Positions 14,239 to 49,735 of a stretch of 64,000 nt of DNA are shown here, in pieces. The position numbers were made by a program, and so were the translations under genes. The stretch is from Syncephalis fuscata (lineage: Eukaryota > Zoopagomycota > Zoopagomycetes > Zoopagales > Piptocephalidaceae): contig JAHLTZ010000013.1 in assembly GCA_025786725.1 (NCBI GenBank), positions 186,001 through 250,000 on the forward strand, given 5' to 3'. Position 1 is the first letter of the stretch. Every line of letters starts with the position of its first letter. The notes beneath the pieces were generated by a model. It searched no databases. It saw only the letters and a list, made by a program, of their open reading frames with translations, and was not told the origin of the DNA.

Positions 14239-14240
14239 AT

Positions 14241-14250: not shown

Positions 14251-14309
14251 ATGGAAATGAATGCCGTCTCGGCATTAGAACATAATGAAAACATACACAA
14301 TTAGTTCAC

Positions 14310-18937: not shown

Positions 18938-18950
18938 AAGTTAACAACTA

Positions 18951-18963: not shown

Positions 18964-18964
18964 A

Positions 18965-19608: not shown

Positions 19609-19619
19609 ATGGGACGTCG

Positions 19620-23147: not shown

Positions 23148-23280
23148 TCGATGTGTCAAGCCAGCTATAAAAGCTGGAATATTTACATTTATTAATAAAG
23201 TAGTTCAATTCGAAGAAAACCTTTTATTTACAAGATCCTAGTGTTTTATCTACCTTGCCGTATTACTCAGTCCCCCTTCA
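23101..23280 (+). repeat. 3' LTR of the second gypsy element (edges inferred)
   Basis: It begins after the purine tract with TGATGTGGCGACAT and ends CCCCCTTCA (TG...CA). It contains a CTATAAAAG promoter-like box and AATAAAG poly(A) motif. The right edge is sharp because the following bases are coding sequence of a recognisable gene copy. No second LTR is present to confirm the left edge. Confidence 0.65.
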
Positions 23281-23560
23281 TAATAGTAATACGACAAGTG
23301 GTAAGAAATATTTAGTTCCAGATAACATTATAAATTCTTGTCTAATGCTTTTTTTGTAGTTTCGTAATATTGTAGTTGCAATAATAAAAATAATAGGCAT
23401 AAAGTGAGTTGTGAGAGATAAAGAAATAAAAAGTAACAAATTACTCGGCTATTTATAGCAAATAGTAGTATATAGTAATAGTGCACGCTTTGCTGTTTAA
23501 ACAAAAAAATGTATTTTAACAATGGGCAGCATGGAAATAAAACAATCTAATTAAACGACA
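23281..23560 (-). pseudogene. Truncated 5' end of a secreted-family gene (copy A)
   Basis: Minus strand. The start ATG is at 23328 and the only coding part left is a signal-peptide start, MLSGTKYFLPLVVLLL, cut at 23281 by the gypsy LTR. Upstream DNA to about 23560, including TATAAATA at 23450-23457, is diverged but alignable with the promoter of the neighbouring family member at 25271-25500. The rest of the gene is not in the window. This copy was destroyed by the retroelement. Confidence 0.75.
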
Positions 23561-24113
23561 GCTCAAAATGGAAATTAGTAATTATTTATGTTAATTAAAA
23601 TACCGTCTTTTATACAAATTAGCTATTGATTTGCCACGTTGATGACATAGAATAAATATGGCAACAGTGATGTGGTGTAGTTGGAATAGAATAATTAACA
23701 GACGATTCAAATGTAGCTGAAATGTATGTATAACATTTCTTTCTAAACTGTAGAATAGCTACGTCATTATACCAACTTGGGATAGAATAAAATGGCGGTT
23801 GTTAAGAAATTATGATATGCAATAAAAATATCGTGTTTTATATTAACAAAGTTATGAAATTAAATATAAAAAAGAAAATTTTTAAAGCACTAGTTTACGG
23901 TTACATCTTTAGTATGAATATGAAATAAAACTAAAAAATATTTAGTCAAATGCATAATCTACATTGATTCAAGTCTTTAACAATAATAAATCACAGAGTA
24001 ACCAAAGTATGTTATAGTTTATTACTTTAGCTACACTACTGCTGCGTGTGGCGATGAAAATAATTGTGCAAAAATAAATTAATATATCTGCAACAAATTC
24101 AGTTATACACTGT
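23561..24113. other. AT-rich spacer
   Basis: About 550 bp between the truncated copy's upstream region and the 3' end of the intact family member. AT-rich, no ORF, no clear element. Confidence 0.4.
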
Positions 24114-25270
24114 TTAGTTAGTAGGATCATTGCTTAGTCTTCGGGGATAAGGCGGTGGGAGCTCATCATTGTTACTTGATAGATTCGGTTGATGATTAAT
24201 AGCAGGTGTACGATTGTTTAAACGATTATTAGAATGCGGGTTATATTGTGGTGGAGGTTGATAGCGAGGTGCATTAGTTATCGGTATTAATAAATCCTGG
24301 TAGTTTTCTTTAATATATTTTAATGCTACATCGTATTCCTCAGGATATATGAGTTCTGCATAAATAAATGATAAACCGATAAATAATAAATCATTTGCCT
24401 TTTTTATATCCGCTTCATTCATCACTGTATGAGAAGAAGAAGAAGCAATACCATTGATGGGGCTCATATATTTATTAGAGCCAAATACTATGCTATCTCT
24501 AGTGATGCATGCATCTAATGATTATATAAGTATAAGCAGAGACAATTAAATATCTAACTTACTATCAATATTGCCACCAATCAACCATCCTTTTGCCTTC
24601 ATCTCACGTATAACTATTTAATTGATTATTAGCATAAGATTATTGCAATTAATATACACTCACTTTTTATAAGATCCGGAAACTTAAATTTGTGCGCTAC
24701 TTGTGCTCTATGTGCTTCTTCCAAATAATCACGTATAGTTTTATTGCACTCTGGTTCAACAACCATGAAGCAATAATCGCCGCTTGGTGAAAAAGACTTT
24801 TTAATAACAGAATAAAAAGGATGTGGCAGTGTGTTTGTTGCATACATGTCGTAATCAGCAGTATATATGTCCTATTAACAAGATTGTTATGTTTAAAGTT
24901 TAGAATACAAGTGGATGTACATACATTGTATAATCTAAATGGAAAATAAGTAGTTTCTTTTTTTCCACATATAACTTTGGCGTTGAGTTTACGATTTCCC
25001 GCTGTATCATATTTTGCATTCACAACATACGCGCCACCTTGTTCTATTGCGTTTTCGCTGATCGTAAGGCCTTTGATCTTGAATGCATCATGTTGACCTA
25101 ACCCGTATTTAAAAATAGCATCCATTATAACAATAATGGTTAGTATTGCATTCTGAGGGGGTTCATTATGCTGTTACTTTTGTACCAAAAAAACCTGGTG
25201 ATGCCAGAGCATTTTGGCTAACTGACAGCAGCACCAGTATTGGTAAAAAACACTTGGTTCCAGATAGCAT
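24114..25270 (-). CDS. Secreted four-cysteine family protein (copy B)
   Basis: Exons on minus: 25178-25270 (signal peptide MLSGTKCFLPILVLLSVSQ), about 24925-25122, 24664-24871, 24563-24613 and 24114-24514; roughly 316 residues. I do not recognise a known domain. It aligns along its length with the protein at 48.7 kb. Shared blocks are LNAxVIC, PFYSVIKK, EMKAKGWLI-like and MSPxxG, with four conserved cysteines (VIC, YC, EC, AC). It differs by a proline-rich tail ending in DELPPPYP. Exon 3 has the same length (208 nt) as in the paralog. The first intron lacks a clear AG acceptor before the aspartate codon, so the start of exon 2 is approximate and this copy may be damaged. TATAAATA lies about 130 bp upstream. 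Confidence 0.7.
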
Positions 25271-27104
25271 CGTCTTGTTCTTATCTAATATTTATGTTTC
25301 CGTAATCTCGTAAATATTGTTGTTGCAACAATAAGAATCAGTAGGCGCAAAGTGAGTTGTATAAGAGATAAAGATATAAAAAGTGGCAAATGTTTGAGTA
25401 TTTATACCAAATTGCAGTATGTGACAATCAATGCAGGATTTATTGTTTGAACAAAAAAACATGTATTTTTGATAATGATCAGCATGGAAGTAAAACAAAA
25501 TAATTGAATAATAGTACAAAATGGAAATTAATCATTATTCATGGTAATGAGGATGCTGTTTTAGATTTGGATGCTGCTTTTTACTCAAATTGGTAGTTAA
25601 CTTGTCGCATTGATGGATTAGTACGATATAGTGAAACAATTTCAAGTATTCAAAAAGAATAGGTGGGGCAGTGCTGAACAATCGAGCCGTTTATTTAAAT
25701 ATCTATTTTATGGTTTTGGTTCTAGAACATTAGTACTAATCATTCACATGCAACGTTATTCCAGTTGTATCGATTCTACTACTTTATGAGATAATGCTTA
25801 TTATATAACTATTTTTTACTTTTATGGATTCTAATTACAAAGTTTTATTTGTATGTTTTTAGTTTATTGTTATGCATATTGTTGTAGATTACATTTATCA
25901 AATTGTTCTAAAACATTGTCAAACGTCTAGTGGATTAGCGAGATTAGCGGAAAATCCTGGGCACAACTGAAACACTTATAATGGTCTAGCTAGTTAGCCT
26001 TGCTATTTGGTTTATTTGACAAAACACCTAATGGCAATTTGGATAATCCACCAGTTATGTTTTAATTATTCCATGACGGTAACTAAATATCAAAATACAC
26101 GAGCTGTTATTAAATCTGCTTAATTTATAAAACAATCTAGTAGCAATATAAACAAAGAGCTTTTAAAATATCGTCATAATTTATTAATATACCCTATAAC
26201 AATTGTGTGACATATGTTTACCTATCAAACTAGTCAATAGCTTCGTGAATTTAATCAAATGATCCTGCATGATCACCTAATTTTAGACATAGAGCGGAAA
26301 GATAGCCACATCAGGCGGAGCTTCAATCGGTGTATTGTCGTCATTTTATCCAATCTTTTCCATGTGCTATTTCACTCTTTATCTCTTTCGCTTTGACTGT
26401 CATCACTTCATCCGACTGTTGAAAAAGACGATAGTGTAGCTGTTTATAAGCTATTGTTACTCTAGCACTATTCTTACAGCTGCATCTTGTAGTTATTCTG
26501 TTGTATCTCGTTAGTAGCCTTTATTACCGCCGTACATTTGAACCAGCAAGTTTGCGACGCCACATCTACTTCATGTGATTAGTGTATCGCGTATCTGTAC
26601 TTCTACATTGCGTCTCGACTCTATATCTCCATCCATATACCTATATCCACTTGTCAACCAAACAACACCCGACTATCGCTTAGTCAACTTTGTCATCTTA
26701 GAAGGCCCGTATCTATTTGCCGTTATCTATTCACAGCTTTCTTACGGCAATTGATACCTCACGTGCTTGCTGTTACGACCACCTATTTGTCTATCTATCT
26801 ATCTATCTATCTATCATTTTGTTTACTGCGCTTTTTGTTTATCTCGACTCGTTTATTTGTCGGCAATATTCACATTGTACAGTTGGCGTGTTATTTCTTA
26901 AATCAATCCAATATTCGTTATATCTACAACGTGGTTGGATACGGCAACAATACGTTGACTGTACAAACATTAGCATTCTATAGCTATTTAATTAGCTCAC
27001 TGGATTTGGCGTAATTTTATCTACTCTGTTGTTTATCGGTGTCTATTTAGACACCTAGCAATTAACAACAACAACAATCATATCAGTATCTATAGTTTAT
27101 TGTT
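25271..27104. other. Divergent intergenic region with family promoter
   Basis: The first 230 bp are the promoter of copy B, homologous to upstream DNA of the other family members, with TATAAATA on minus at 25399-25406. The rest is AT-rich. A (CTAT)n run lies at 26791-26814. Small ORFs at 26.7-27.0 kb are low complexity from that repeat and I do not accept them as genes. Confidence 0.5.
25399..25406 (-). promoter_or_regulatory. TATA box of secreted-family copy B
   Basis: TATAAATA about 130 bp before the ATG. The same octamer occurs at nearly the same distance in the other copies (23450-23457, 31367-31374, 48568-48575), within wider conserved upstream sequence. Confidence 0.6.
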
Positions 27105-29105
27105 ATGTATTCTGGTACACGAGGGCGGCAAAATCCGCCGCCTACTATGTTCTATTATCAAAGTAACTTATCCTTTTCAAACGTCCACGATACCTACAAC
27201 AATGATAATGTGGATACACCGCACTGGGATGATGTCTTTACATTTCGACGCCACTCCAGCCGTGCTTGGTCAGTCATCACCGATAATGATGCAGAAGAAA
27301 TAACGACATTATTGGGCAATCCAATACGTGGTCGATTAAAGAGAAAACTAGTTGAATGGTGTAATCGTATGTTAACACGCAATATATTACTTATTGTAGT
27401 GCCTACACTTGCAGTGAGTACTTTATAATATTAATAGAACTGTTTATTAATTATCAATATTTAGATTCTAGCCTGGTGTACAATTCCAATTCCATATGAA
27501 TTAATTGAAAGTAATGTTCCAAAACCGGCACCGGCACCGGCACCAATAGAACATAATGAAACACCATTTAAATCAATGGCTACATCACAACCATCATTTA
27601 CAAATAATCAAGCTCAGCTCAAATGGTCAAAACATTCCGATTTACCATTAAATGTCGCACCAGTTCAAGTGAATAATCAAGTCGATAACAGTGAAACTAG
27701 ATATAACATTTTTACATCTGTTATGTCTAATCACTCAAAAGATAGTATAAAACAACGACAACAATCAACGAACACTATGGATGACAGTATTAATCAATCA
27801 TCTCCACTTAACGTTGATCGATCAACAACGACAGCCACCATCATTTCATCCAGTAATAATAGTAACAATAGTATAGCCGCACCTCATAGTTTAGAATTTG
27901 GAAAACATGAATATGAAGAACATCCACCTATTGCACTAGTTAATTTTTGGTGGTTTCTTTTTGTCTACTATGGCATTTATAATATTATCGCCTTATGGCT
28001 TTTAACTCGTATATTTCAAATCTATTCACTTAACTGGTGGGCAACAGGCTGGAGCAGTAAATCGGCCGGTGCAGCTTGTTGGCTCTGCTCAATGGTCGGT
28101 GGAGCGTTTATTCACTTATTTCTACCACATCTTGAACGCTACACCATTACATGGGTTCTACTTACCTTTCTAATGCTGACTATTCCTCTTTTATCGGCAT
28201 TTGCCGTTATTCGCGGTGAAAATCGCAATGTATACCGACATTCACTTACACTGACCCAGCAAACATTTATGACAACCGATAATATAGGACCACGCATTCC
28301 AGCTTCCTATTTCCGTTTCTTATGGTTCTGTCTTGTTCTAGTCATGATGTGGGCCACTACAGTAGCCGGTGGTTTCTATGCCTGGAGCTATTTATCTTCA
28401 TTGCCACACACCGGCATAGAGGCGTTTATCTACGTCTACTCTTGGGTGGGCATTGTTTACGCTATCGATTTTGTATGTGAAACGATTGTTGAAGAAAAGA
28501 TTCGCTCCCATCCACTTTGTACGGTATTCCGTCTCTATTTCTATCTGCTATATTTCATCTTTTATCGCAATCTATTTGCTCGACTTCGTAATCTTGAACA
28601 ATTTGTCTTAATTCAAGCAGCTTCATCGATTTGGGTCATGATATTCTATCCACTGCGTATGACCCGTACCACGCACCGTTTACTTCAACGATGGTTTGGC
28701 GTGACCCGCGACTACGACGATTACCAGAAGATGCTGGGCCAGCTATTTTATACACGTACCATAGCGGAGAATGTAACCATGCTTGGCTTTCTATGCTGGA
28801 TGAATGCCATTCGAGCCAGTAGCAATTTCCCCATCTATCCATACTACCAATTCAATGGTTATGAAGGTGATCCGTATACCTATGAAAGAACTATGATCTG
28901 TTCTATAGGCGTATGGGTATCGGAATTAGTGACCGCCTATGTGACGCGTGGTCTATTCAAAGCCTATTTCCGACACAGTATTACACGTGAGGCAGTGATG
29001 GATATGCAACGATATCCGGATACAGTATTAACATTAATACTTGTGGCAATTCATGTCATGCAAAGTATGTTATTAGCATTATTCCAACTGAATTTTAAAC
29101 ATTAA
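27105..29105 (+). CDS. Multi-pass membrane protein, function unknown
   Basis: Exons 27105-27413 and 27465-29105, 649 residues, frame intact. The N-terminal 85 residues are soluble and polar. One hydrophobic segment (NILLIVVPTLAILAW) spans the intron. Then comes a disordered Ser/Asn/Thr linker with a PAPAPAP repeat, followed by about ten more hydrophobic segments starting at ALVNFWWFLFVYYGIYNI and ending at a C-terminal membrane segment (VLTLILVAIHVMQSMLLALF). Charged loops contain RLLQRWFGVTRDYDDYQKM. I do not recognise a named family. By layout it could be a channel or transporter of an internal or plasma membrane, but no catalytic motif supports a specific job. Confidence 0.8.
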
Positions 29106-29200
29106 ATTAATTATTTTGTCAATTGGATTAAATAATTAATGGATAATTTATATGACAAATAAAATAGTGTCGATATTTATTACAATACCAACCATTATCA

Positions 29201-30428
29201 TTACTCATCGTGTTTATGTGAGTGACGGCCCTTGCGACGTCTGCGTACTTTTTTATGTTTTTCATCGTTATGTTCGTCGTGTTCTCCTTCTTCTCCTTCC
29301 TCTTCTTCGGTGCCACTGTCTTCAGAGTAATGTAATAAAGCGGTCAATTCCATTTCTTTTTTATCGCTATTTGTTCGTTTAGTCGGTTTTAGAACGAGAA
29401 ATGAATAACGACGCCATAATTGAGCCGATGCAAATAAAAGACCAGCTAAACACTTGGCCTCTCGAGGATCAAGTACCAAAAAGCCATCTGTAGGCGATCC
29501 AATAAGTGATGGTGATAAGCGGGCCAGTATAGCATCGGCATAACTAATTTTGTCTGGTGTATTAAGTGTGGTCATGGCATAGATCAGTGTAGTGGAAAGA
29601 CTAACACGTAAATCGTAGTGTTCTTCTTTAAACGCCGCCGGTGTACGTAGACCCCAATCAGCCGCCGTTAGATTAAAGGCATCTATTAATAACATGTAGT
29701 TATTTAATTGGTTATTTATTTAGCTATTTAGTGATCATTAATTGACTTACCGGTAATAATACCGCCACCACAGCCGGCAAGTGTACCACAAAGTAACTGA
29801 GCAATTAAGCTATTCTGTAGTGCAGGCATAGCACGTATTGATTCAATGGCAAAACCTGCTTGTGCATTAGCACGAGTTAAACCATCGGCCAGTAAAAGAA
29901 TGGGACGAATATAGGGTTCAATGGCATCGAGTAGCCGGAATGCAATATCACCGGGTGCACGAAACATGGCCAAGTAAACAATTCTATTATTATTAATAAT
30001 CCAGTAGTTATTATTACAATTATACATTATTAACATGTCTCCTTTACTCTCTCTCCTTGCGCTCTCCTTTAATTGAAAAGTGTATTGACTTACGCATAGG
30101 TCGGTAGTGTGGTGTTTGAAGAGAGCCAGCTTGGTGGTAGACCCATAAGTACAGCGGCTGATGTAGAACCACCCAATGCCATGGCCATTACAACAAAAAG
30201 GCCCTGAACAAGTGGTGGACGTGGTCCAGACATTGTACGAAGACGTGCTCGATAATCGAGTGTCACTTTAATTGCATGAAGTGTTGCAAGAATAGGGAGT
30301 GGTAGCAATGGCGACCATGTTTCTCGCTGAAGCGGGTCAAGTAGATTGGTTAGAAAACCCAGCAGGTTACTATGTTCAGCCACGACAAGGGTCGGCGGTG
30401 GTTGTTCCTCTTTAAAAGACGACGCCAT
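29201..30428 (-). CDS. TRIC-type intracellular cation channel
   Basis: Exons on minus: 30094-30428, 29751-29983 and 29201-29682; 349 residues, phases consistent. The pattern GGSTSAAVLMGLPPSWLSSN then IVYLAMFRAPGDIAFRLL and CGGGIITDAFNLTAADW follows the animal TRIC (TMEM38) channels: a glycine-rich first repeat, the L-x-F/R-P-x-D segment, and G-x-G-G-x-I-I-T near the second repeat. Animal TRICs carry K+ counter-current for Ca2+ release in the ER. The C-terminus is a long acidic stretch (EEEEGEEGEHDEHNDEKH) and then basic RRRRKGRHSHKH. The ATG at 30428 is chosen because the upstream in-frame codon is not ATG. Confidence 0.75.
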
Positions 30429-31480
30429 ATTGAAACGCAAGTAGAAGAATAAACAAGTATAATCAAATTGTAATGAACAATAGAAAGAAGTAAAGGGGCG
30501 GTATTGGTTAAAGCATACGTCACAGTCTAAAAGTGACCTTGATACTTATAGCTAAATTAACACTTTTTAAAGTAGTTATAATGATATACTAATACGGATA
30601 AGTAGGGGCAAATGGTAGGATAATCAAAATTATGACACTGTGCAGTTAATAGCGTTTTAATAGGATTCCACTGTCATTGACTTGAATTATTGTGGATTAA
30701 ACGTTTACTTGACATTAGATTATTCTATTATTGGTTTATGTTGAATCTGTTGCTGTAATCCATGAATTAATTTTTAAGATTTCTGCTCATATCTTTATTG
30801 CTAAAATATTTTAACATATGCTATGATTTGTATAAGCAATACATTAACGACATAATACCAATAAACAATATTATACAATCATCATATTCATATCGCTTAT
30901 TCTATCTATCACGATAATGTCAATTTGTATAAATGATTGAGTGTATTAAAGTACACAGTAGTCTTTAGCAATCAGTCTGTTCCAAACAGTCATAAGATTG
31001 CAGCTAATTGCAATGTATATCATTAAAAGCTGTGTTTAAATTAGTATCAACAAACATGCATACTCAGTTCGCCGCGTTTACGAATAAATCCATTATTTTC
31101 TTTTGGTATTGGAGTTTGAAATTAAGGACCACACAATGGAATTGCTATAATGAACTATGTTCTTCTCATCATGTTGTCAATATATATACATATATATAAA
31201 TGACAATGCAACTCTAAACATTTGTATTTCAAATTCCGTATTTGAATAACGGGGTTATTACTTGCTGTTTATTTCCATGCGCTCTTCCGTGTTTCTTACT
31301 CTGAAGTAGCATTCCATATTCGTCGTCTCATAGTAAATACATCGACTATTGCATGCTCTATTTTGCTATAAATACTCATTTTAACATATTTATTTGTTAA
31401 TCATCCCATCATATTTTTTCCTTACGTAATAAACTCATAAAAGTACAGCTTTTTATTGACGACTAGGCCTTGACATAGCC
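30429..31480. other. Intergenic region with a duplicated segment
   Basis: It contains one copy (30789-31354) of a roughly 570-bp direct repeat also found at 39274-39853. Just past the repeat lies TATAAATA at 31367-31374, the promoter box of the next gene. No other gene seen. Confidence 0.6.
30789..31354 (+). repeat. Segmental direct repeat, copy 1
   Basis: Nearly identical to 39274-39853. Relative to copy 2 it lacks single bases at several points (for example GCAGCTAATTG against GCAGACTAATTG) and has fewer CATA units in a TA/CATA microsatellite. No ORF is conserved between the copies. Confidence 0.9.
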
Positions 31481-32504
31481 ATGTTTACGATGAAATTCAT
31501 TCTTATATTACTGCTCTAGCTTATGCTAGTATGGTTACTCAAGCCACGCCTGCCGATGGCGCACCAAATCAGCCCAGCCTCGGTGGCAAGTATCTATCCC
31601 AAGTCACTCGTGCCATTTACTAATGTTACTATTTATATAGAATTATAAAAACCAATCAAGACTATGTAAAAAGCTTATTTGGCCTACATAGTATTCATTT
31701 ACCGGCACGCCAAACGAATCTAATGGCATATACTATACCAAAGCAACGCAAAATAAGCAGCCTATTACACTTGCATGTGGACTAAATTCAAATCCCAAAA
31801 GTCATGCTCTTAAAGTATATCAGGTGGTTCTATATAACAATATATGCAATAACTAACAAGTATCGCTATCAATAGGATTTAATGGAAACTTACAAACCGT
31901 TTGATGAACGAAACCCTCCGGTTGCTGTGCCTACAGGAAAGATTATGATCCCAGGAAATACATGCTATGTTCTACAAGGCCAATGTAAAAAAAGATATAA
32001 GGATTTTGCTCAAGTATTTAGTGGGTATGTCAACAATGTTAATTGCGCATAAGAAATATTGTTCTAACCTAAATTAGTCGTGATGATGTGGAAAAAGTAC
32101 AAATTTTGTGGATAAATATTGGAAGTGGTACGAGTTTTTAGTGCTTATATACTATATGTTAATCTATTATTAGGTCTAAAAGCTTTAAAAGAATTGGGAT
32201 GGTATGCCCACATGAATTTTGAAGGTAAGCATGGTGTTTATCACTGATGTTTATACTAACAATATTGCTAGATATTTGCATTTATGAGGACAAATATGAA
32301 TTTGACCCATACTTCATTAACCTCAGTAAGGTTATTCCAGTAGGACAAGGAAGAGTTATCGTTGATAAACTTGAGGGAACAACTAAAATTGATGAAATGA
32401 ATGAGTTTGCTCTAAATGCTAGTCTTCGTCTTGTTAGTGACAATGTAAAAGCTGAGATAGCGATAAAAATGCGTAATTCTTTTAATGAAGGAATGTATTG
32501 GTAA
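31481..32504 (+). pseudogene. Secreted four-cysteine family member, frame-broken (copy C)
   Basis: Six exon-like blocks: 31481-31589, 31641-31823, 31876-32024, 32078-32127, 32174-32224 and 32272-32504. It aligns with the family: a hydrophobic leader, then ITLACGLN, NTCYVLQGQCKKRY, ALKELGWYAHMNFE and DICIYEDKYEFD. The same four cysteines are kept. The block equivalent to one 208-nt exon of the paralogs is here split by an extra intron. The leader frame breaks near 31515 and exon 2 breaks near 31725, each explained by one missing base. From exon 3 on, all junctions are in phase to TAA 32502-32504. It is either a recent pseudogene or a gene hit by consensus errors; the intact downstream exons favour the latter. 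Confidence 0.65.
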
Positions 32505-33250
32505 AATCTTTTTTATTATTTTGGCAAACCAGATTTTAAAGACCGGAATTTAGGACCAATAGACAGCTTTACAGATGCAATCAGTACTATAGCATTGGGC
32601 CCAGAGAATAAATAACAAGTCTTACAAATAACCAGTGATTACTTAAATAAAGCCATGCCATGTTGCGGTTTACTTATTACAACTGTGCACTATTTCTAAT
32701 ATCGATTATTTGTTTATTAAATAATAACATTTATTGCTATTATAAATGTTATTTAGTATAATTAAATAACATAGTATTTTATAAAAATAATATGTATAGT
32801 AGTCTACTATATGCATTTTGTATATTTTAATATATTTAATTCCTTTCTCTATCCTTCAACGTGTAAATGTCGTCAATAGCGCATAATGATCATGGCTGAC
32901 AAATGCCAACTTTAATATGCGGATTTCGCTTATTAATGCTAGGTAAACAAATAGCTACATTTTTAAATCACGTCTTTTCTATTTATTATTCGTAGTAAAT
33001 ATAATGTAACTATAGTTAATAAATAATGAATAGTATGATTTGATCAATTACAACATACATTAAATTAAACACTTTTAATAGTAATTTAATAATAGATAAA
33101 TAAAGATAATGATTAATTTGTTAATTAGCTAGTTAGTTAACAAATCGATTATCTTTATGTATTGTTATTGTTAGAATAAAACAAAATAAGAATTTAAAAG
33201 ATTCACTTTGAATAAATGTCTTTTGTATAGATAATCATAAAAAATAGTAT
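32505..33250. other. AT-rich spacer with a long imperfect hairpin
   Basis: No gene. At about 33106-33157 an imperfect inverted repeat (GATAATGATTAATTTGTTAA against TTAACAAATCGATTATC) could form a hairpin between two convergent 3' ends. It may act in termination, but AT-rich spacers often show this by chance. Confidence 0.4.
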
Positions 33251-34692: not shown

Positions 34693-34954
34693 GATCTGTA
34701 CGGCTTAATAGAACGGAAAGAAAAGAAATGACACGAAAAAAGAACAGACTCTTTATTTGTTTACTTTTCAGTCGTTACTTTCTAGTATTTCTACAGTTTG
34801 AATTGTCAATATAATTAATATTTATATTATTGACTCTATAATCAATTAAATATCTATTGTTTCTTATATAATTTATATGACCAACTACTGTTAAACACAC
34901 ACACTATAACATAGCGAGTATTCACTTTATAATCAACTGATTAGTATTACTATT

Positions 34955-35949: not shown

Positions 35950-36152
35950 TAATAAAATAAATGTTATAAATGTTAATAAAGTGTTATATATTATTAATAT
36001 TCAAACACTAATTTGTAAATGGATTTATAGTCAATATTTTAATTACAGTTGTTTCTTTCTTGAATTCTTGTTAAATAATAACAATTCTTTGTTATTTGTT
36101 ATTATACTCGATCAACGATAGAACAACAGAATAATTCCGTATAAATACTAGA

Positions 36153-38974: not shown

Positions 38975-40685
38975 ATAGCTTTATTATTAAATTAGTAGTA
39001 TTTAGTTTACTTTTATTTAAGCTTCGATGATGTTGATACCGAATATTATTAGTGGTTGCCAAAAAGATACAAAGTAACAATAAATTGAATTTGATAAAGT
39101 TAGAATTATAGTAATTATAAATACCATTACACTCGATTGAATCAATACTAATTTAGATAATAATTAGAATTAACTAAGAATATTCATCACAAGATTTGGT
39201 AGTTGTATTAAAATGGCCGTATTTAGATATAATTATAAGCTAAAGTTTCAAGCTCTCTTTTCTCACTGTATCTATATCTTTATCGCTAAATATTTTAACA
39301 TATGCTATGATTTGTATAAGCAATACGTTAACGACATAATACCAATAAACAATATTATACAATCATCATATTCATATCGCTTATTCTATCTATCACGATA
39401 ATGTCAATTTGTATAAATGATTGAGTGTATTAAAGTACACAGTAGTCTTTAGCAATCAGTCTGTTCCAAACAGTCATAAGATTGCAGACTAATTGCAATG
39501 TATATCATTAAAAGCTGTGTTTAAATTAGTATCAACAAACATGCACTACTCAGTTCGCTGCGTTTACGAATAGATCCATTATTTTCTTTTGGTATTGGAG
39601 TTTGAAATTAAGAACCACACAATGGAATTGCTATAATGAACTATGTTCTTCTCATCATGTTGTTCAATATATATACATACATACATATATATAAATGACA
39701 ATGCAACTCTAAAACATTTGTATTTCAAATTCCGTATTTGAATAACGGGGTTATTACTTGCTGTTTATTTCCATGCGCTCTTCCGTGTTTCTTACTCTGA
39801 AGTATGCATTCAATATTCGTCTGTATCATAGTAAATACATAGACTATTGCATTGTTGCTATTCTAATATTTTGGACAGGGTCTTGTGTGAAGTGTGACCA
39901 AAAGATATACCATGTAATTGGATCACCAGGTAAAGTCGCATGTGATTGATTGCAAAAATAATATACCTATCGGATATTAGTACCAATTACTAGTAACAAA
40001 TGCCTATTACGACAATATGACGAGTAGCTACTTGTTAGTTGTGAACATATGAGCAGTCACCTGAACTAATATGCTGCGCTAATAATGAAATACTACAAGA
40101 CATTCCAGTTCTATTATTAGTTATGTTTACTATATAATGATAGCTTTATTCAATATCAATAAAGAAATAATCAAGTTTCTAGTCCAATGTTATTTCTACT
40201 TAGTGTCATACAAGTTATTCAGTTTATTATAGTTAAACTGTGGTAATTGATAACCAATAAGGAATAATTTTATTATAAAAGCAATACAACCAAACAACAC
40301 ATTGCATTCTGAGCGTTAAGCTAAGCGTTAATAAGCATCAGAAATTAGCGTTATAGGATAGCGATAGGATAAGGTGTTGCTTGGTCATCTAAGTTGCAAT
40401 TTCTAAAACTAGAAGCGTAACATTACGTTATTTCCTTGTATGCTGTTTATGCTGGAGAAGCTATTTTAATTTATAAAACTCAATGTATTTTTCTTTTAAA
40501 TTTTTCATATCTTTATTAATAAAATACTTTATGTCTGTAGAAAATTTGTTCATTTCATTCCACATGTACCAATAAAACGGCAAAGGCCACATCACAGCCT
40601 AACGCTATTAATAAATCACGTCATTGCGTAATTTATATTAGACAAATACTTTCTGTTCTTACAAAGGCAATGATATCTTTTTCCA
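38975..40685. other. Intergenic region with a duplicated segment
   Basis: Holds copy 2 of the direct repeat (39274-39853). A short ORF at 39758-39949, partly inside the repeat, ends with a hydrophobic, cysteine-containing stretch (IVAILIFWTGSCVKCDQK) that looks like a signal peptide but has no matching partner. The rest is AT-rich with no gene. Confidence 0.5.
39274..39853 (+). repeat. Segmental direct repeat, copy 2
   Basis: Partner of 30789-31354, about 8.5 kb away and in the same orientation. Here the repeat is not followed by the TATAAATA promoter or a secreted-family gene. It has extra CATA units and the single bases that copy 1 lacks. Confidence 0.9.
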
Positions 40686-42273
40686 ATGCCGTTTGAAAAT
40701 AGCAACGCTTCAGCAAAGATATGGGCTATTGTCGAGATTGTCGAGCACATAGCATTATTCAGTGGAAGTCAGGCCACCGCTATCCTGTCATGTACTTGTG
40801 CTCAATTGCGCAGCTCTATAACAAAAAGTGATCGTTTATGGCATGCGTTTTATCAACATGCTTTCTTTTTTTGTAAGGACAATGATGACGGCTGGTTAAG
40901 CTGGCGACTAAATCAGGAATACTCGACTTTGATGCACACGGATTGTGTAAAAGACGAACACACAAAAAACTATAGCTGGTGGCAACGTTACAGCCAACGT
41001 AAAAAACTACATATAATTGGCTTGAGAATAAGCCGACAAAAACGTTCAACATAATCGGTATTAAGCAGGGTTCAAGCCCAATGTTAACATACAATGATTG
41101 TGATATATTAGCCACTTGTCCTGGTTGGATTGCCTTGACTGATCGTTACCAGCACTGGATTTATTTAATTGAGCTTTCGCCAATTCGTTCAGCAATCGTA
41201 CACACACTAACTTATAGTGAGAAGTCATTTACCAAATTAACTGCAGTATTCAGTACTAATCATCAAAAGCCTTTTGACGACAAAGAAAAAAAAGAGTGCA
41301 ATCTATACTTGATTCTGCACATGTTTTTTCCATACAAAGGCATAAGTGAGCTGCAACTATGGAATGTAGGCAATAGGCAACTATCGCAAACAATTCATTA
41401 AAAGGACGTTTAATGGGCAAGATCATTGGCTTATCTCTGCTACAATGTGAGATTGAACGTGGCTGTTTTAGTCCGCCGCCTTATGATAGTTTTATATCTT
41501 TGATTACAAATATCATTCCAACTAAGAATCGTAAAGTGCAATTTATAGACATTCCCAAGAAAAACAAAAGCAGTCGTTGCATTATACAATCAGTATATGA
41601 GGATTTTGTAATTTTATTGCGCTATTCTAATTATTTACCCTCAGACTCGTACGATGTAATCAAAGTGCCAACAAACACGCTATCCGACGAAGTAGCCAAC
41701 AATGAATCACAGCAGATAATAACCCTTAGCTCAAATTGTTTTTCACCTTCTAATGGAATGAGGCAATTATCTTGTAATTTTCATCGATTGGATCAGAATA
41801 GGGCCTTGTTTCATAATCCAATGCAGTTTGTCGGATCCAACGGCAAACAGCAATATACTGATTACATTGCTGTTTTATCAGTGTCGAACGGCTTAGTTTG
41901 GGAAGCTAGTTATCCTGGAGAACGAAGTGAGCGTTTAATTTTTATGCCTGAGCATAATCTATTTGCTATTCTGTATTCTGAATGGCCAATAATTGTGGTT
42001 ATTTCATTATTGGATGGATCAATTAAGCACAAAATTGGCATTGATTTTTCACTTGATAAGTTTAGCAATTTTGAGCGTTGTTTTGATACATTAATCGTTG
42101 GATATTATTTAAAAGCAAGCCAATATTGCATTGTTAATTTAGCAACAGGTCAGCATTCTATTCATTTATTTCCTATATCAAACGTTACAAATTGCAAGCC
42201 TACATTTGGTCATATGCTAATAAGAAATAGTAACGAATTGCAAGCTATAAGTTTTGTTCCTGAACCAATATAA
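40686..42273 (+). CDS. F-box-like protein, frame-broken
   Basis: From ATG 40686. The first 50 residues resemble an F-box: AIVEIVEHIALFSGSQATAILSC then LRSSITKSDRLWHAFYQH. F-box proteins link Skp1-cullin ubiquitin ligases to substrates. The remaining 450 residues show alternating short beta-like segments (LLRYSNYLPSDSYDVIK, YIAVLSVSNGLVWEASY, VISLLDGSIKHKIGIDF) that could form a propeller, though I see no clean WD or kelch repeat. Three ORFs in successive -1 frames (40686-41054, about 41003-41401, about 41377-42273) join if one base is missing near the A6 run at 41001-41006 and another near 41390. No intron is apparent. Confidence 0.6.
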
Positions 42274-42525
42274 CTTTTGACGCAATTACAATAGCAATAA
42301 ATAGTATATTTGGACTTTATTACTTTTCCAATGTATCTATAGCAAGAAAATACACATTGTTGAGCGATAATTAAACAGCGAGATTAGAAGAGACAAAATA
42401 CTAATGACATAAATTTAGTTTTTATTTGCATATTCTCAATAAAATAACATACACAATTAGAGTAACAATAAACCAAAGAAAGCTCTATTAAGCGAATAAA
42501 CAAGTGTTTTTATAGATTTAGTTGA

Positions 42526-43472
42526 TTAGATTATTACGGTTTGATTGGGCTTAATATTGGAAGAGAAATGAAATAAATCGTCGACCATTCGTTCGCTAAC
42601 ATCATTAATAGAAAGATTAAGATCCGCCAAAGGATCCACAAATTGGTCGATTGATAGATAATGCCATTTTGTGTAAGTATAGGCTCGCCTACAACATGAG
42701 CATCCTCGACGTGAATATTATCACTATTGCTATTGCTGTTGCTATTATTAGCTTTACCCATACGCGCCACCTGTAGCGACACACCGGCAAGTGTGGGCAC
42801 ATCGTATTGATGATCTAGTTTCATTGAATCTGCTGGAATTTTTGTTGGGACCAAGAGACCAGCCAAAGTAAATCCCATCATAGCTCGATTGAAATAGTTG
42901 GGCCCCAGTAAGAGACGTTGTGCATTGGGCGATAGTCGGTCAAAAGCCACATCAATTGGTGCAAATAACTAAAATAAATATTTACTAATGAAGATGACCG
43001 TATTTTCAAGCGCTTATACGACTTACTGTTAAATTCTGAAAGGATCAACCAATAAATGACTATGTATTCCGAGCAAATTTAGATGCGTGTTCAACTGAGA
43101 GAATTGCGGCTGCTTTGCAATGATTGTACCAATGGTATTGGGCCGAAGTGGTGCTGGCCCATTAGGAAGCGTAGCAAGTGGCGATTTGGGCATCCATTCA
43201 AACACTTTAACAAAAGGCAGGCCAGGCAATGGTCCATTTTGTACAATGGCAGGAAGACCAGGCTTTTGCAGTCTATGTAATCGATGTATGTTCTTGCTTT
43301 TACTCTTTGCTCGAGTCGAATGTCGTTGTTCTACTCCGATTATAGACTTTATCTTTGGCACTATTGATGCTGCAACTAAGCCTGCTTCTATTGTATTAAT
43401 ACCGTAACCAACATTGTGACCAATAATTATTATGGTCGATAATATTGTAATTAGTCTGTGAATTCCACGCAT
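42526..43472 (-). CDS. Secreted fasciclin (FAS1) domain protein
   Basis: Exons on minus 43027-43472 and 42526-42968. A signal peptide opens the protein (MRGIHRLITILSTIIIIGHN). A basic, proline-containing region then leads to one FAS1 domain: IGTIIAKQPQFSQLNTHLNLL, LFAPIDVAFDRLSPNAQRLL and the NGIIY...IDQFVDP signature corresponding to the NGVIHxID motif of the family. FAS1 proteins act in cell adhesion at the surface. I see no GPI signal. Two breaks, each one base short, fall at the end of exon 1 (near 43035, in a T run) and in the NGIIY motif (near 42655). Confidence 0.72.
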
Positions 43473-43876
43473 TCTCTAGTTATTGTCTAAAGACACATTA
43501 AACATATGTTTACTACTACTAAAGTTGTACAACCTATCTTTTCTTTTGAAAATCGTCAACCGAATACAAAACAACAACAAAGGAACAAGCTTAATTGGTA
43601 CCAAGTTACGGAACTTTTGTTTATAAATATACATTGCATTCATAAGTCCATCCATTGTCATAATAAGCGCGTTACCATGGCGCATTTTATTGTCGACTAT
43701 TTAACAACGCACGTAATATGATATAATATCTATGTCACTTGGCAACTTTATTCAATACATACGATGCTATTCATTAGCAAAATAGTAGCTAGGCTACCTA
43801 TCTGTTCACAATAGCTTCTTTTCTACCAATGATTGTCCATCATTATTGGCACACCTCAATGTATCTGCAGTTCATG
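43473..43876. other. AT-rich spacer
   Basis: About 400 bp between the FAS1 gene start and the last exon of the Rds3 gene, both on minus. It should contain the FAS1 promoter and the Rds3 3' end. No gene or clear motif. Confidence 0.4.
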
Positions 43877-44512
43877 CTACCTTTGTTTAAATCCTAATAG
43901 TAAACGTGAATAATCAATGAAATTCATTAATTAGCGGATAGCTTACCATATTTCTTCCGTTCATAAAATAGATCGGTCTTTGATGTGCCCAAATTGACAA
44001 CCTTTGGACAGCCATCTCTCTACAAAGCGCAAAAGTGCAAAAAAATAGATAGGCACGTCATGTTGTTAATGCTATGTTCCATATTCTCAATAGGCACAAC
44101 ACCACTACTCTTATCGATAGTCCAATATGCACTATATTGTAGCGTATTCGTTACTATCGCTATTTACTTACATCTTTTTCCAAAACAGTACACTCTTTGC
44201 AGTAGTACGCGTCAGAAATGCCAACACCACCACAGACAACACAGCGTCCCTGGAAAGTGCCGTAGTTACATTCGTCGCAGATGTGGACGAGCGTGCACGG
44301 CCGTACATAAGAGTCGCAGATAACGCATTTGCCATCGCATTTCTCGCATAAACGACCAATAGCTATTATCGTTATCGTTAGTAGGCAAAAATAGAATGCG
44401 ACAACCGCAAAAAGGTATCGTTATAAGCAACATGGCTTATTAAAACAAACGACCACTTACCAATGCCCGGCTGCTTACGGCACATAATAAGATCGGGGTG
44501 ATGACGAGCCAT
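43877..44512 (-). CDS. RDS3: SF3b subunit Rds3/PHF5A
   Basis: Four exons on minus: 44461-44512, 44172-44362, 43947-44019 and 43877-43893 (17 nt). All are in phase and give exactly 110 residues, the family length. It is a zinc-binding knot protein of U2 snRNP SF3b that helps recognise the branch point. [62 protein letters not shown] and [20 protein letters not shown] are all present, with all cysteine pairs. Only the last residues differ (FKQR). The frame is intact. Confidence 0.96.
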
Positions 44513-45891
44513 GACAATACAAGCAGATCACTTATACGTACGTAAAAAGTTGCAATAACAAAACGTGCGAATCCGATCTAGAATGCACTAAGCCTATTCA
44601 ATGGTGTGCACTATTTGTCAATAAATCAACTTTTAGTTATTAATCATTATTAATAGACCATAGATTGATCAAAACTATAACCACCAATCATGTCAATTTA
44701 GTGAAGTTTTCCCATTGCCATTGTAAGCCATTGGTAGACGGCAAATTTGTCTGCCGTGACTGCAACGATGCTTCACCGCCTTTTGGTAGCCATGTAACCA
44801 TCAGGTGCATCCTATGCAAGCTTGCATCTTTGCTTCAAAATAGACCAGTAATTAAGACGGATATGATACACGTGCCAGAATATCCTCCGTCGCGTACCAC
44901 AACTTACTACGGCTACTGGTTGGTGGTTAGTTGTTGTTGTCATGCCAACATCCTGATCAGGCTGGAATGGGTTATGCCCCAGACTGCTACTACGCAAACA
45001 AAACCGACTATCCCACGCTCTGCAAGCACTTATAACGAATAACAATTGGTTATAATGGACATGGTAATTAACGTCGTTTCTCGTATATTAGTTTACGCGG
45101 CACATTCTCCATTTATGCCATAGAAAGGCAGTATACAATTAAATTAGTGCTTTATTCGGTTTATTATTAGCTCTTTTTTATTTTATTTCTATTCTATTTT
45201 TGTTATTTGCCATTGTATCTCACATAGTCGCCGTATTCGGCGCATATTACATTTATATACACACGCACATTGGATATTGTGCATTCGTGTCGTGTTTCTA
45301 AATTGGAGGATTGCCGTCATATCCGAATTTGTACTCAGCTGACTTGTGCGTGTTTGTGTGTTTGCGTGTCTGCATCATCCATCTCATCATCCCCTTTAAA
45401 TACACCGCCTTGTTTGTCCCCCACCCACCAACTGCATTCTTTCTTTATTTTGTCTTCTGGTTTCTTTTATTCACTGTTGGTCATCATGGCTTTCTAAATT
45501 TATTTTGCGCGTATACTTTTTGGCTATTGGAATTATTTTAACAGCAATTAACAGCAATATCTTTGGCTTTTATTGGACAGCAACTTTTATTTTTAGGCTT
45601 TATTTTCTCTGACCTGCACCGCAATTACAATGACTTGGCTACGTCATCCTCGACCTAAAATGGCTTTTCTCTATTCTCAACAATTATTTTGCTTACCGAA
45701 AGAAAAACTTAAAGAACATTAACATCAGTATTAGCTATTCTCTATCGAGTTGAATACTCACATTAATTATTCATTGATTGCTTTAATAATCAATCCAAAT
45801 CCTCTCTCCAGTTTTAAATTTTGCCGTTATTGGTACTTATTGTTTTGAACTATAACTATTTGCTCTATTTGAAATTTAATTGATTATCAAC
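44513..45891. other. Intergenic region with an uncertain cysteine-rich ORF
   Basis: A frame open at 44665-45042 (+) encodes CHC, CRDC and CILC pairs (HCHCKPLVDGKFVCRDC), suggestive of a zinc site, but has no ATG near its start and no recognisable domain. It lies divergent to Rds3. I cannot confirm a gene. The remainder is AT- and pyrimidine-rich with no feature. The last 150 bp are the promoter of the kinase-like gene. Confidence 0.35.
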
Positions 45892-47268
45892 ATGAAAGCT
45901 GCCGTAACATCTTTACAGATGCTGCCATCTAATCTGACGCATCGTCTTACGGCCGCGGCAGTGACACGCATTTCGGTAAGCAATGACAACATAGGCAGTG
46001 TAACCATAAGCCTTTCACTGTTGCCGTTTTTAGTAATCATAACTAATTGTTTATTTATTACTCATTAGCTCAAGGAAATGTTTATGAAGAACCGTGAAAT
46101 ACTGGCAAATCATGATGGGACTGCTCTAGTAACACCGGCCCAGTTCCTTCATCGCGAACTGCCGGTACGTCTGGGACAAAGTGTAGCGTTGTTGGACGCA
46201 ACACTGTCTCATTCTGATACGACACATTCGCGTAGCTCTATACTACGAGCAACAGTGGTAAAACGTGTCATCCACCAGTATGTCAATGATATCAAGTTAT
46301 TGCTCGATACGCCTGTACCAAAGACGGCGGAACAAGCTATTGGATTTACGAGTATTTTGCACAAGATACGAGAAGGCCAGAGACAATCTATATTTACTCT
46401 TGGCGAAGGTGTGAGTCCTTTAGCAAGTCTGGAACACACTGAGGAAACACGTCAAATGCAGCGCTTTCTGGGAAGATTCTTCTCCGCTCACTTGGGCACA
46501 CATATGCTAATTGGTAACCATTTAACATTATGTGAGCATGGACGTACACTTGTGGACACTGTTCGTCCATACGACATTGCCCAACAAGCGATTGAAGATG
46601 CCCGTCGTAGCTGTGCGGTAGTGTATGGCCGACCTGCACCCAATGTCGAGTTTATTGCACCGGAGCCTAGTGTTTCCACCACATATATACCCGAGCATCT
46701 TAGACGTATTCTATACGAAACGGTCACATTTGCTCTGCGTGGAACTATGGAGCACTTTGGTGTGGCAAAGGATGCAACATCTACCTCTAGCACTGTTCCA
46801 TCCGTAAAAGTAGTGATGATCAACGGAGAAGAAGATGTTAGCTTTAAGGTGTCGGATATTGCGGGTGGTACACCAGCTCGTCAAGTTGAACGACTCTGGT
46901 GGTACAATTGGGAGGATGTCATTCGTGCTCATTCTCGTAACGCTGGTCTAACACCAGTGGCTGATCAATCTAGCGAATTCCAATCTGTCTGTCCGTTTGC
47001 CATGCCTACTAATGGCGAGCCAGCGAACCTAACTTGCATGCCAGGCTTTGGCTTTGGACGAGGATTGCCCGTTGCCCGTTTGGCAGCCAGATACTTTGGA
47101 GGCGATCTGGATCTTGTCTCCATGGAAGGCTACGGCACTGATGTCTATGTACATCTAACACGCGCCGATACTTGCCTGGAAAACTTTCCACCAAGTCCCG
47201 AAGTGGCCGATGCTATCGATCGCAACTACTGGATTATTCCACCAGCTGCGGTTGAACTTGAGGCCTAA
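45892..47268 (+). CDS. PDK-family pseudokinase
   Basis: Exons 45892-45975 and 46069-47268; 428 residues, frame intact. The layout is that of mitochondrial dehydrogenase kinases: an N-terminal helical domain (LHRELPVRLGQSVALLD, then LGTHMLIGNHLTL) and a GHKL domain ending FGFGRGLPVARLAARYFGGD, SMEGYGTDVYV. Key residues are lost. In the N-box, where E-L-x-K-N-A-M-R-A is usual, it has ETVTFALRG (residues 245-253), so the Mg-binding Asn is Phe. The conserved His-containing R-x-R-H-N segment reads REGQRQ. The G1 Asp (SDIAGG) and G2 glycines remain. The wild-type family phosphorylates E1 subunits; this one may bind nucleotide or partners without catalysis. The N-terminus (MKAAVTSLQMLPSNLTHRLT) could be a mitochondrial presequence. 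Confidence 0.85.
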
Positions 47269-47597
47269 ACACTTCAGTCATATCAGTTTCTTTCTCTTCT
47301 TTTCGTTTCGTTTATTGCTTGTTTGCGTGCGTAAAATACACTGCAGGTTTTAATTGCTTACCAATTAATTGACATTGTTTGGTATATATTTTGAATGTTT
47401 GTTTTTTCTATATACAAAAAACAAGCATGAATATCAATTTAATAAATCTATCAGATTTGTTGCAGTGTAATATATAAGCTACATGGCACACGGTTTAAGA
47501 CATACGTTTTAGTTTAATTAATCTTATTGTCAATTTCAAATAAAATTGGCCTTCATTATCCATAGCAACCTGCTAACTTTCTAGTGCTTTTATCAAG
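47269..47597. other. Spacer, 3' of pseudokinase
   Basis: About 330 bp holding the kinase-like gene's 3' end (AATAAATC near 47440) and the promoter of the next small gene. No metal-response or other box recognised. Confidence 0.4.
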
Positions 47598-47894
47598 ATG
47601 AATACACGCAATCCATCCCATATCTATCGCTTTTTAGAAGATAAAGGACAATTCACTAATAGTGATACGATAAACGATGCAAAAGCACCACCAGCTTGTA
47701 CTGTAGCAATTCGACAAAACGAAAAGACTCGTTGTATTTGTCAACTGGATCACGATGACCTGTGTACCTGTACAACATTTGGTCTTTGTGCATGCGATCG
47801 GACTAGTTGCTATTGCGAGGATTGTTCTCCAGTACAAGCGAACTTGAACCAGCATACTTTGAAAGGAAACTCGTCGAAATCGAAAATTGAATAA
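47598..47894 (+). CDS. Small CxC-rich, metallothionein-like protein
   Basis: 98 residues from ATG 47598, single exon. The core (residues 46-76) holds nine cysteines in four C-x-C pairs plus one (CIC, CTC, CAC, CYCEDC) with spacings of 7, 5, 4 and 2 residues. C-x-C clusters are the mark of metallothioneins, which bind Cu or Zn in the cytosol. Unlike most fungal copper thioneins, the cluster contains aromatic and acidic residues (LDHDDL, TTFGL, Tyr) and is flanked by polar tails of 45 and 22 residues, with no signal peptide. Metal binding is inferred from spacing only. Confidence 0.6.
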   Translation: MNTRNPSHIYRFLEDKGQFTNSDTINDAKAPPACTVAIRQNEKTRCICQLDHDDLCTCTTFGLCACDRTSCYCEDCSPVQANLNQHTLKGNSSKSKIE

Positions 47895-48699
47895 ATTGTA
47901 TAGTTATTGTCATGCAGTACTATGCTAAAAATGAACTATGAGCATTACTGCAAAAGTGAAACTAACTTTGATAATGTATAAATATCAATACAACAAATTT
48001 ATTACAGGTTCATTTCAAAAATACCAGTATATCAACATTTATAAGACCTAAATATAAATGATACGTCTAATGTTTACTACACGTTCAGTAATTCAAGTAT
48101 AATTAGAGATTATCTGAATTATATGATTAAAATTTTACGATTAAAATTTATTAAAGGCAATAAGTAACTATATATTGTATAATTTTAGCTACAAAAAATA
48201 TTAAATTGATAAAGCAATGAAAATCTACATGCAAGCGATTAGCACTAATACTTAGGACTAAATCAACAAAATAAAATTCTAACTAGACGGCACAATTGTT
48301 TACCATTGCCCCAGTTATTTCTTTTTAGATACATAACATCTTGTTACCATATTTGTTCTAAGCCACTAACATAACAGGTCAACTAGTTGTATATAAAGCG
48401 GTATCTAGATCTAAAACGGCACTTTCAATTAGCTTGCACGATTATTAGTCCCCGTTTTGAGCTGTAATTCGATTAGAATGTTTTACCCCCATGCCGGTCA
48501 TTATTGCAATACAAGGCCTATCGCTTAAACAATAAAACGTGCATTAACTACTATGTATTGCAATTGCTATAAATACTTGAATAATTGCCACTTTTGTTTC
48601 TATATCACGCACACGACTCATTTTACAACTTCTTATTTTTATTGCTATAACTACAGTATCTCACAAAACTACGGGATATACGCATTAAACAAGAATCCA
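47895..48699. other. Promoter region of secreted-family copy D
   Basis: AT-rich. The last 140 bp align with the promoter of copy B, including TATAAATA at 48568-48575, a TTGCCACTTTT block and the stretch before the ATG. No gene. Confidence 0.5.
48568..48575 (+). promoter_or_regulatory. TATA box of secreted-family copy D
   Basis: TATAAATA 132 bp upstream of ATG 48700, in the context GCTATAAATACTTGA, comparable to GGTATAAATACTCAA upstream of copy B. Confidence 0.6.
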
Positions 48700-49735
48700 A
48701 TGATGCTATCCAAAACCAACTATCTTTTATCTCTACTGGTGCTGCTATCGGTCGGTCAAAGTATAGCAGCATTGCCAAACAATCTTGATGCAAAAGGTAA
48801 CAACATAATGGATTTGTAATACGATGGTAATACTAACATAACAATACTAGATTTTGTCTCTGAGTATCAACTAGGCCAACCTGGAGCATTTGGTATCAAG
48901 AGCTTAGTTATTAATAAGGATGCAGTGAAAAAAGAAGGCGCATATGTTATGGAAGGAAAATATATTGTAGATGGATCTTATCGGCTCAATGCTAGAGTTA
49001 TATGCAGAAATGAGCCAACTAAATATTTGCCATTCAGATTCTACCAGGTATGCATATCCGCTATTACTTTAAATCTTAGTCATAATAACTTTGCTGATAG
49101 GAAATGTATTCTGGGGATTTTAACATGTTTGAATCAAATTCTCTGCAAAGCCCCTTTTATTCTGTCATCAAAAAATTTACTTTAGATAAAGGCTATCTTT
49201 GCTACATGACTGCTAATTCAATGTGCAAGAAAACCGTTCAGTCCTATCGTACCGATAAATACGTTGAACCACAAGTAGCAAAGTCTAGACTTTTGAATTT
49301 TATAAGCTGCAAGTACATATCAGTTACAGTATTTGTTTTGCTAATATCCAATTGAATAGTGATTAAAGACATGAAGGCAAAAGGGTGGTTAATTATTTCT
49401 GCCGTCAGTTCCGGTAAGTTGAATAGTTAACTTTTGCACTTGTAACTATGCTTATATGATTATCAGATGGATGCATTGATGATAATCGCATAACATTTTC
49501 TTCCATCGATCGCATGAGTCCTATGGATACAGCATTTCCAACTATTGATGGGCGTGTAAATGACAATCAAATCATAATGGAGAATGAGAGACTATGGATG
49601 TGGCTGGCCTATTTTTATCTTAAAACTGAACCTAGTTTGAGATACTTGCAAGCATTAAAAGACGTTAAAGATAAATACAAGGATTTAGCAATATCAATAA
49701 CTAATCCACCATTCAATCAAAATTCACGACCGTAA
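48700..49735 (+). CDS. Secreted four-cysteine family protein (copy D)
   Basis: Five exons: 48700-48796, 48851-49047, 49101-49308, 49360-49413 and 49467-49735; all in phase, 274 residues. Signal peptide MMLSKTNYLLSLLVLLSVGQ with likely cleavage after SIAA. Conserved with copies B and C: LNARVICRNE, FYSVIKKF, YLCYMTANSMCKK, DMKAKGWL, GCIDDNRITF and MSPMDTAF. The four cysteines could form two disulphides. The third intron begins GCAAGT at 49309, a GC-AG intron, needed to keep the MKAKGW block in frame. This is the best-preserved member. I do not recognise any known domain. Secretion, paralog expansion and rapid divergence are typical of effectors or host-interaction proteins, but that is inference. 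Confidence 0.8.

Follow-up and report, generated by a model that had tools for sequence, protein, structure and literature searches.

What kind of protein is encoded by a recurring family of multi-exon genes in the zoopagalean fungus Syncephalis fuscata, a member of a mycoparasitic genus (excerpt of PMC6784888)? The question is raised by a 64,000-nucleotide (nt) stretch of contig JAHLTZ010000013.1 (the window), which contains three long family members, called A, B and C, and one truncated piece. The original prediction, made from the letters of the window, described them as secreted, strongly diverged proteins with four conserved cysteines and no known domain. We conclude that they are putative secreted pseudokinases that would derive from secreted kinases. 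L numbers denote loci or gene models, and P numbers annotated proteins.

Copy C and the exon pattern of the family

Copy C, at 48.7 kb, proved to be the intact gene that had been described. It occupies 48700-49735 on the plus strand, with five exons of 97, 197, 208, 54 and 269 nt and introns of 51-54 nt. The exons form a single open frame of 274 amino acids with a signal-peptide-like start, corresponding to hypothetical protein BDF19DRAFT_440103 [Syncephalis fuscata] (P0001) with 100% identity over 273 amino acids. They are as follows, with strands (b) and helices (a) named as in the predicted fold discussed below.

48700-48796, plus strand: copy C exon 1, signal peptide; the annotated start is the second Met, at 48703
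48851-49047, plus strand: copy C exon 2, YxLGQPGAFG motif, b1-b3, C83 adjoining the position of the kinase Lys, most of helix aC
49101-49308, plus strand: copy C exon 3, 208 nt, b4, b5 with C131, hinge C139, aD, aE; followed by a GC-donor intron
49360-49413, plus strand: copy C exon 4, 54 nt, phases 1/1, MKAKGW; counterpart of the kinase exon with LHSAGWAHGDIKPK
49467-49735, plus strand: copy C exon 5, b7-b8 with C187, shortened activation segment, aF-like W..L...Y; stops short of any PPxY tail

The donor of intron 3 (window 49309-49359) is GCAAGT. GC is also found there in several other copies, and GT in copy A and others. Downstream of the copy C stop, tail-like sequence is left in another frame.

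We built 21 spliced models of family members, six of which contain stops and a further four of which are doubtful. The 208 nt exon 3 noted earlier in two copies was found in A and C, and in 11 of the 21 models overall. The small exon before the last is 54 nt in C and 51 nt in A and B, as had been reported; across the models it ranges from 45 to 58 nt, being 54 nt in 15 and 51 nt in two. It has phases 1/1 in 18 of the 21 models, and a Trp at the same codon in 18/21. The cysteines of copy C are C83, C131, C139 and C187 (P0001 numbering). All 11 rows of an alignment have C83 and C131, and nearly all have C139, but C187 varies, and the claim of four conserved cysteines has to be reduced to that extent.

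Extent of the family

A tblastn search with copy C as query gave 71 exon matches. Hand grouping places these in 23 family loci, spread over 11 contigs, and one kinase locus. Chance is excluded because of these matches; the family is real. One of the 23, the L057 locus (C245:790.8 kb), was matched weakly (E = 0.06); against the family profile it scores 75.9, where shuffles reach at most 19.8. The genome-wide count of paralogues, which the original prediction had proposed as a check, comes to 23 loci with query C, four extra with query L057, one of them weak (E = 0.03), and 18 besides B with query B. The family is therefore multi-copy, with subfamilies. The locus pairs C14/C135 and C168/C78 may each represent two haplotypes of one locus. 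Counted by hand, seven of the 23 loci found with query C are no more than 10 kb from the end of a contig, and a search for the telomere-type repeat TTAGGG x3, by a method that skips simple repeats, gave no match. The introns of L052 and L055 (C24:93 kb and C279:5 kb) are identical (0/206 differences), yet the synonymous distance (dS) between the two is 0.10, a pattern suggestive of gene conversion or of mosaicism among copies.

A protein search with copy C returned the identical annotated protein and one paralogue, both from S. fuscata, and no further match at E ≤ 10. A family profile of 11 rows found nine proteins, all nine from S. fuscata, in a database that included those of S. plumigaleata and S. 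pseudoplumigaleata; it found no relatives outside S. fuscata, although its five-residue-word method may miss distant ones. At the sensitivity used, the family was thus found only in S. fuscata, and its secreted-looking, strongly diverged character was also supported.

A predicted kinase-like fold

Searches by sequence agree with the absence of a known domain. Copy C and copy A (exons 2-5) matched no Pfam family at E ≤ 10, six annotated members matched no Pfam kinase family, and the best PDB match of copy C had E = 0.33. Structure modelling led to a different result. The AlphaFold2 (AF2) model of copy C (predicted local distance difference test score, pLDDT, 72; predicted template modelling score, pTM, 0.68) has a kinase-like order of elements, and a bilobal kinase-like fold is predicted for the family. 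The copy C model gave 583 PDB matches in Foldseek at E ≤ 0.001, and the best 50 of the 583 are all kinases. The model of P0006 (pLDDT 62) gave 516 matches, the best 50 of which are again all kinases, the TRIB2 pseudokinase included. No ribonuclease fold is among the best 50 matches listed for either protein. Fold prediction, together with the profile comparison and intron positions described below, points to a degenerate protein-kinase fold where no domain had been predicted.

Profiles were compared using hhalign, with a family profile of 15 rows, four of them doubtful. It scored 40.3 against a first kinase set of 6 rows (E = 6.6e-5, 198 columns, 64% probability), and 38.1 against a second set of 7 rows that included other Syncephalis species (E = 1.5e-4, 193 columns, 51% probability). 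As controls, 200 column shuffles gave a mean of 14.7 and a maximum of 25.0. Reversal of the family profile gave 18.8, and four other S. fuscata kinases, compared as pieces, gave 15.7-17.2. Of single kinases L049 scored 45.2, over a 36-column stretch. The stretch common to family and kinase is YxxGQPxAFGxxxLVI, ahead of b1; the N-terminal motif is YESGQPDAFGVHGLVID in L049 and YQLGQPGAFGIKSLVIN in copy C. The b3 and b5 cysteines of the family align by eye with Cys residues of the kinases, whose KC and DGxGC cysteines are found in 9/9 sequences, three of them near-identical. At the level of sequence, the profile comparison supports probable homology, mostly via one kinase.

Gene structure in common with a group of Syncephalis kinases

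Spliced alignment of copy C to the S. fuscata genome also matched the kinase gene L049 on contig C289, with a score of 129. L049 has a hydrophobic N-terminus, a Pkinase domain (108 bits to PF00069) and the sequence HGDIKPKN. At L049 (C289, 1337-1423) the annotated kinase P0010 begins at a downstream Met, and an upstream in-frame start gives a signal-peptide-like N-terminus.

Six kinase loci with hydrophobic N-termini were modelled, three of them near-identical. In all six the catalytic loop is carried by a 54-nt exon of phases 1/1 (LAYLHSAGWAHGDIKPK in L049), and in five it is preceded by a phase-0 intron, which L069 lacks. The family has the same arrangement: a 54-nt exon with phases 1/1 around the Trp, and before it a phase-0 intron at the end of aC, in roughly the same place as in the kinases. 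In copy C the small exon spans from nine codons before the Trp to nine after, as in L049. Ten loci of other S. fuscata kinases were tried; the six that were modelled lack this 54-nt exon. The region of the catalytic loop is free of introns in four of them, and in the other two the introns lie at different places. The loci L077 and L078, which we call ULK-like, were rejected as a source of the family, their catalytic-loop introns being at other positions. Both fall within a second S. fuscata kinase expansion, in which at least 22 PF00069 matches cover exactly positions 9-112.

The annotated 'kinase-like domain-containing proteins' P0010-P0015 occur in three species, S. fuscata, S. plumigaleata and S. 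pseudoplumigaleata. They resemble the family in an AFGxxGLV-like motif and the b3 and b5 Cys, in a hydrophobic N-terminus (by eye, in the long kinase models L049, P0011 and P0012), and in the 54-nt exon of phases 1/1, the kinase gene structure coming from S. fuscata loci only. Unlike the family, the kinases keep the b3 Lys, DFN (9/9), a full C-lobe, and the catalytic loop in 8/9 sequences (the annotated P0014 model is without it); no PPxY tail was seen in them by eye.

Several observations weigh against a kinase origin. The AF2 models superpose loosely on kinases and the alignments are shallow. The score of 129 for L049 is moderately above those of unrelated rows (about 98 among the matches listed). 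Taken singly, L069, L070 and L074 score only 25.7, 19.3 and 22.3 against the family, and when compared with kinases directly the L057 model scores 26.1 and copy B 16.1. The proteins might then represent a new fold of secreted, cysteine-containing proteins without relation to kinases, with the kinase-like model and common introns being coincidental. That the alignments are shallow and the superposition loose, that there is no Pfam or PDB sequence match worth naming, and that, of four kinases scored singly, three come close to the shuffle range would fit this. We consider it very improbable, since the best 50 Foldseek matches of two members are all kinases, the small exon has the phases, and the position relative to the Trp, of those kinases and not of the six others, and the profile score is far above the shuffles. 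An unknown cysteine-rich domain was rejected on the fold and intron evidence. Because fold prediction, intron positions and profile comparison agree, we are highly confident that the family is of protein kinase origin.

Loss of the catalytic residues

With the models anchored on the small exon, the catalytic-loop His (of HGD) and Lys are each absent from 21/21 models, and the Asp is present in 5 and absent in 16; the row of L050 in this comparison is shifted by a doubtful splice. Judged by eye from the hhalign alignment, the position of the b3 Lys is I82 in copy C, and that of the DFN Asp is S197, the latter for copy C only. Immediately before C83, 11/11 alignment rows have I, T, L or V and none has K. 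Between DFN and the aF-like helix the family sequence is shortened, and inspection by eye showed nothing resembling an APE motif. Copy C therefore shows none of the features of an active protein kinase that were looked for, having no match to PF00069 or PF07714, no b3 Lys, no catalytic-loop His or Lys and no DFN Asp. Nor does the family have the intact catalytic motifs of the Syncephalis secreted-kinase group, and because these are lost we file it with the relatives of that group, and not its members.

The family proteins are accordingly described here as predicted pseudokinases, having a modelled kinase fold without the catalytic residues. They would descend from a small group of secreted Syncephalis kinases that are probably active, or have a common ancestor with that group. 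The N-lobe, helix aE and the aF-like helix would have been kept, while the activation segment and C-lobe were shortened and the catalytic residues lost; the b3 and b5 Cys, two of the four family cysteines, would stand at positions that are also Cys in those kinases. The introns would preserve a trace of the change from active to dead kinase even after similarity in sequence had nearly vanished.

Copies A and B and the truncated member

Copy A lies on the minus strand at 25270-24114.

25178-25270, minus strand: copy A exon 1, signal peptide; donor missing a G relative to C
24925-25121, minus strand: copy A exon 2; expected acceptor without AG
24664-24871, minus strand: copy A exon 3, 208 nt, spliced model
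24563-24613, minus strand: copy A exon 4, 51 nt, MKAKGW
24114-24514, minus strand: copy A exon 5, proline-rich tail; two PPxY, the last (PPPY) at about 24158-24147

Exons 2-5 (197, 208, 51 and 401 nt) match the pattern that had been described, MKAKGW included, but the first intron lacks the expected splice sites at both its donor and its acceptor. The 5' end of copy A may therefore not splice as in copy C.

Copy B lies on the plus strand at 31481-32504.

31481-31823, plus strand: copy B exons 1-2 region, frame interrupted in both, as read
31876-32024, plus strand: copy B exon 3a, 149 nt, CYVLQGQC
32078-32127, plus strand: copy B exon 3b, 50 nt; extra intron, unseen in A or C
32174-32224, plus strand: copy B exon 4, 51 nt, LKALKELGW
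32272-32504, plus strand: copy B exon 5 to stop, open reading

It is a family member with open reading in exons 3a, 3b, 4 and 5, but as read here there is a stop inside the signal-peptide exon and a frame change in exon 2. The six exons originally counted arise because exon 3 is split (149 + 50 nt). Exons 3a-5 are linked to the family by hhalign, with a score of 34.4 over 71 columns against at most 22.9 for 100 shuffles of B. Of the 18 loci found besides B with copy B as query (hand grouping), 14 have a match at E ≤ 0.01. Contig C112 carries 11 of the 18 between about 71.8 and 277.5 kb, including 8 of the 14, and the B subfamily is apparently clustered there.

The truncated member at 23.3 kb is present, but amounts to no more than the start of a signal-peptide exon, with its ATG at 23328 on the minus strand. 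It is cut off at a stretch resembling a long terminal repeat (LTR), of which a 99% identical copy lies beside the family copy L041.

23300-23328, minus strand: truncated member, start of signal-peptide exon only
23097-23302, minus strand: LTR-like stretch at the truncation, 206 bp, 99% identical to the stretch beside L041

Broken copies such as B and the 23.3-kb piece, and the models with stops (6/21) or otherwise doubtful (four more), would be expected if the family were mostly secreted-kinase pseudogenes that have no current function and were spread through duplication driven by transposons. Yet copy C is open and annotated, and the close copies are less diverged at nonsynonymous sites than the value of 1 for the nonsynonymous to synonymous ratio (dN/dS) expected of unconstrained copies. 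We therefore regard a decaying family as very unlikely. By the NG86 method dN/dS is 0.26-0.46 in six pairs among L051, L052, L054 and L055, which indicates constraint. It is 0.87 for L050/L053, whose splice models are doubtful, and 0.43-0.80 for copy C compared with 13 others (dS 0.78-1.34). With all values below 1, positive selection at the whole-gene level was rejected, and the dN/dS check proposed originally gave no support for it.

PPxY tails and possible function

PPxY motifs are recognised by Nedd4-like ligases, and part of the family carries this WW-domain ligand motif in its sequence. Seventeen models reach the end of the profile, and nine of them have PPxY in the tail. Among ten tails of at least 40 amino acids it occurs in seven, compared with 0.61 expected from shuffles; the shorter tails with PPxY are those of L039 and L046. 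Of the 17 models, it was not found in copy C, the L051/L052/L055 group, L040, L049, L050 and L053. We know of no PPxY partner in the secretory lumen, and would argue that a secreted protein has most use for such a motif if it enters the cytosol of another cell. Where present, the C-terminal tail would recruit a WW-domain ubiquitin ligase of the Rsp5/Nedd4 type. Nedd4-like ligases bind PPxY motifs (excerpt of PMC2958808), and GRA35, which binds ITCH via the C2 domain and not WW, provides a loose precedent (excerpt of PMC10936166).

Gene structure, copy number, PPxY tails and the loss of catalytic residues were observed directly; the kinase fold and secretion of the family proteins are predicted, and their delivery to the host and the partners they bind are inferred. 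We think it likely that they are secreted pseudokinases acting at the host-fungus interface, where they would bind host or parasite partners via the dead kinase fold, and act as co-factors or decoys of secreted kinases. For a role as host-directed effectors the chances seem evenly balanced. The best analogy may be found in Toxoplasma, where the secreted pseudokinase ROP5 is a co-factor of the paralogous secreted kinase ROP18 (excerpt of PMC3393671). In both cases a parasite would have polymorphic secreted pseudokinases paralogous to a secreted active kinase, the likeness being one of function only. The organisms are unrelated, the Syncephalis proteins have a shortened C-lobe and some have PPxY tails, and no direct sequence comparison was made. 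A complete arsenal of this kind, in which secreted active kinases and dead-kinase adaptors enter host hyphae and PPxY tails recruit a host Rsp5-type ligase to bound proteins, we consider improbable.

Proteins of kinase origin could also act within the parasite, as endogenous pseudokinases of the secretory pathway or cell surface, for example as scaffolds or allosteric partners of its own secreted kinases. The occurrence of the kinases in three Syncephalis species, and the gene structure common to both families, are consistent with this. We judge it rather unlikely, as 23 loci plus subfamilies in one species, retroelements nearby and stops in 6/21 models would be unusual for housekeeping scaffolds, and PPxY would lack a known partner in the lumen.

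To our knowledge, effectors of fungi that attack other fungi have been little studied. Secreted pseudokinases at the host-fungus interface, our preferred reading, would offer a candidate family that can be named and counted, with a fold prediction, relatives in that genome that are likely to be active, and a PPxY/WW motif open to testing. Among the matches listed in a literature search, with preprints and most subscription journals outside it, none concerned secreted kinases or pseudokinases of Syncephalis. The excerpt of PMC6784888 contains neither 'secreted' nor 'effector', and its two places with 'kinase' are metabolic enzymes; the excerpt of PMC10386755 does not contain 'kinase'. The one match for both pseudokinase and mycoparasite, PMC4859500, uses the former term solely in a reference to a C. 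elegans protein. The RNase-like effectors of powdery mildews (AvrPm2 family; excerpt of PMC5347869) are likewise a diverged secreted family with an enzyme-like fold and a predicted disulphide, but mature AvrPm2 has 99 residues and is ribonuclease-like, whereas the Syncephalis family is kinase-like. CRN8 of Phytophthora infestans is similar in being a host-translocated secreted protein with kinase activity, but it is an active kinase, of the CRN family and from an oomycete (excerpt of PMC3426532).

Surroundings in the window

Between 27465 and 29105 of the window there is an open frame of 546 amino acids with several hydrophobic stretches, which gave no Pfam or PDB match at E ≤ 0.001. The proximity of family copies to retroelements, as described earlier, was confirmed. 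Retroelement polyproteins occupy 10872-23147, of copia type (RVT_2) and of Ty3 type with a chromodomain on the minus strand, and another of Ty3 type on the plus strand.

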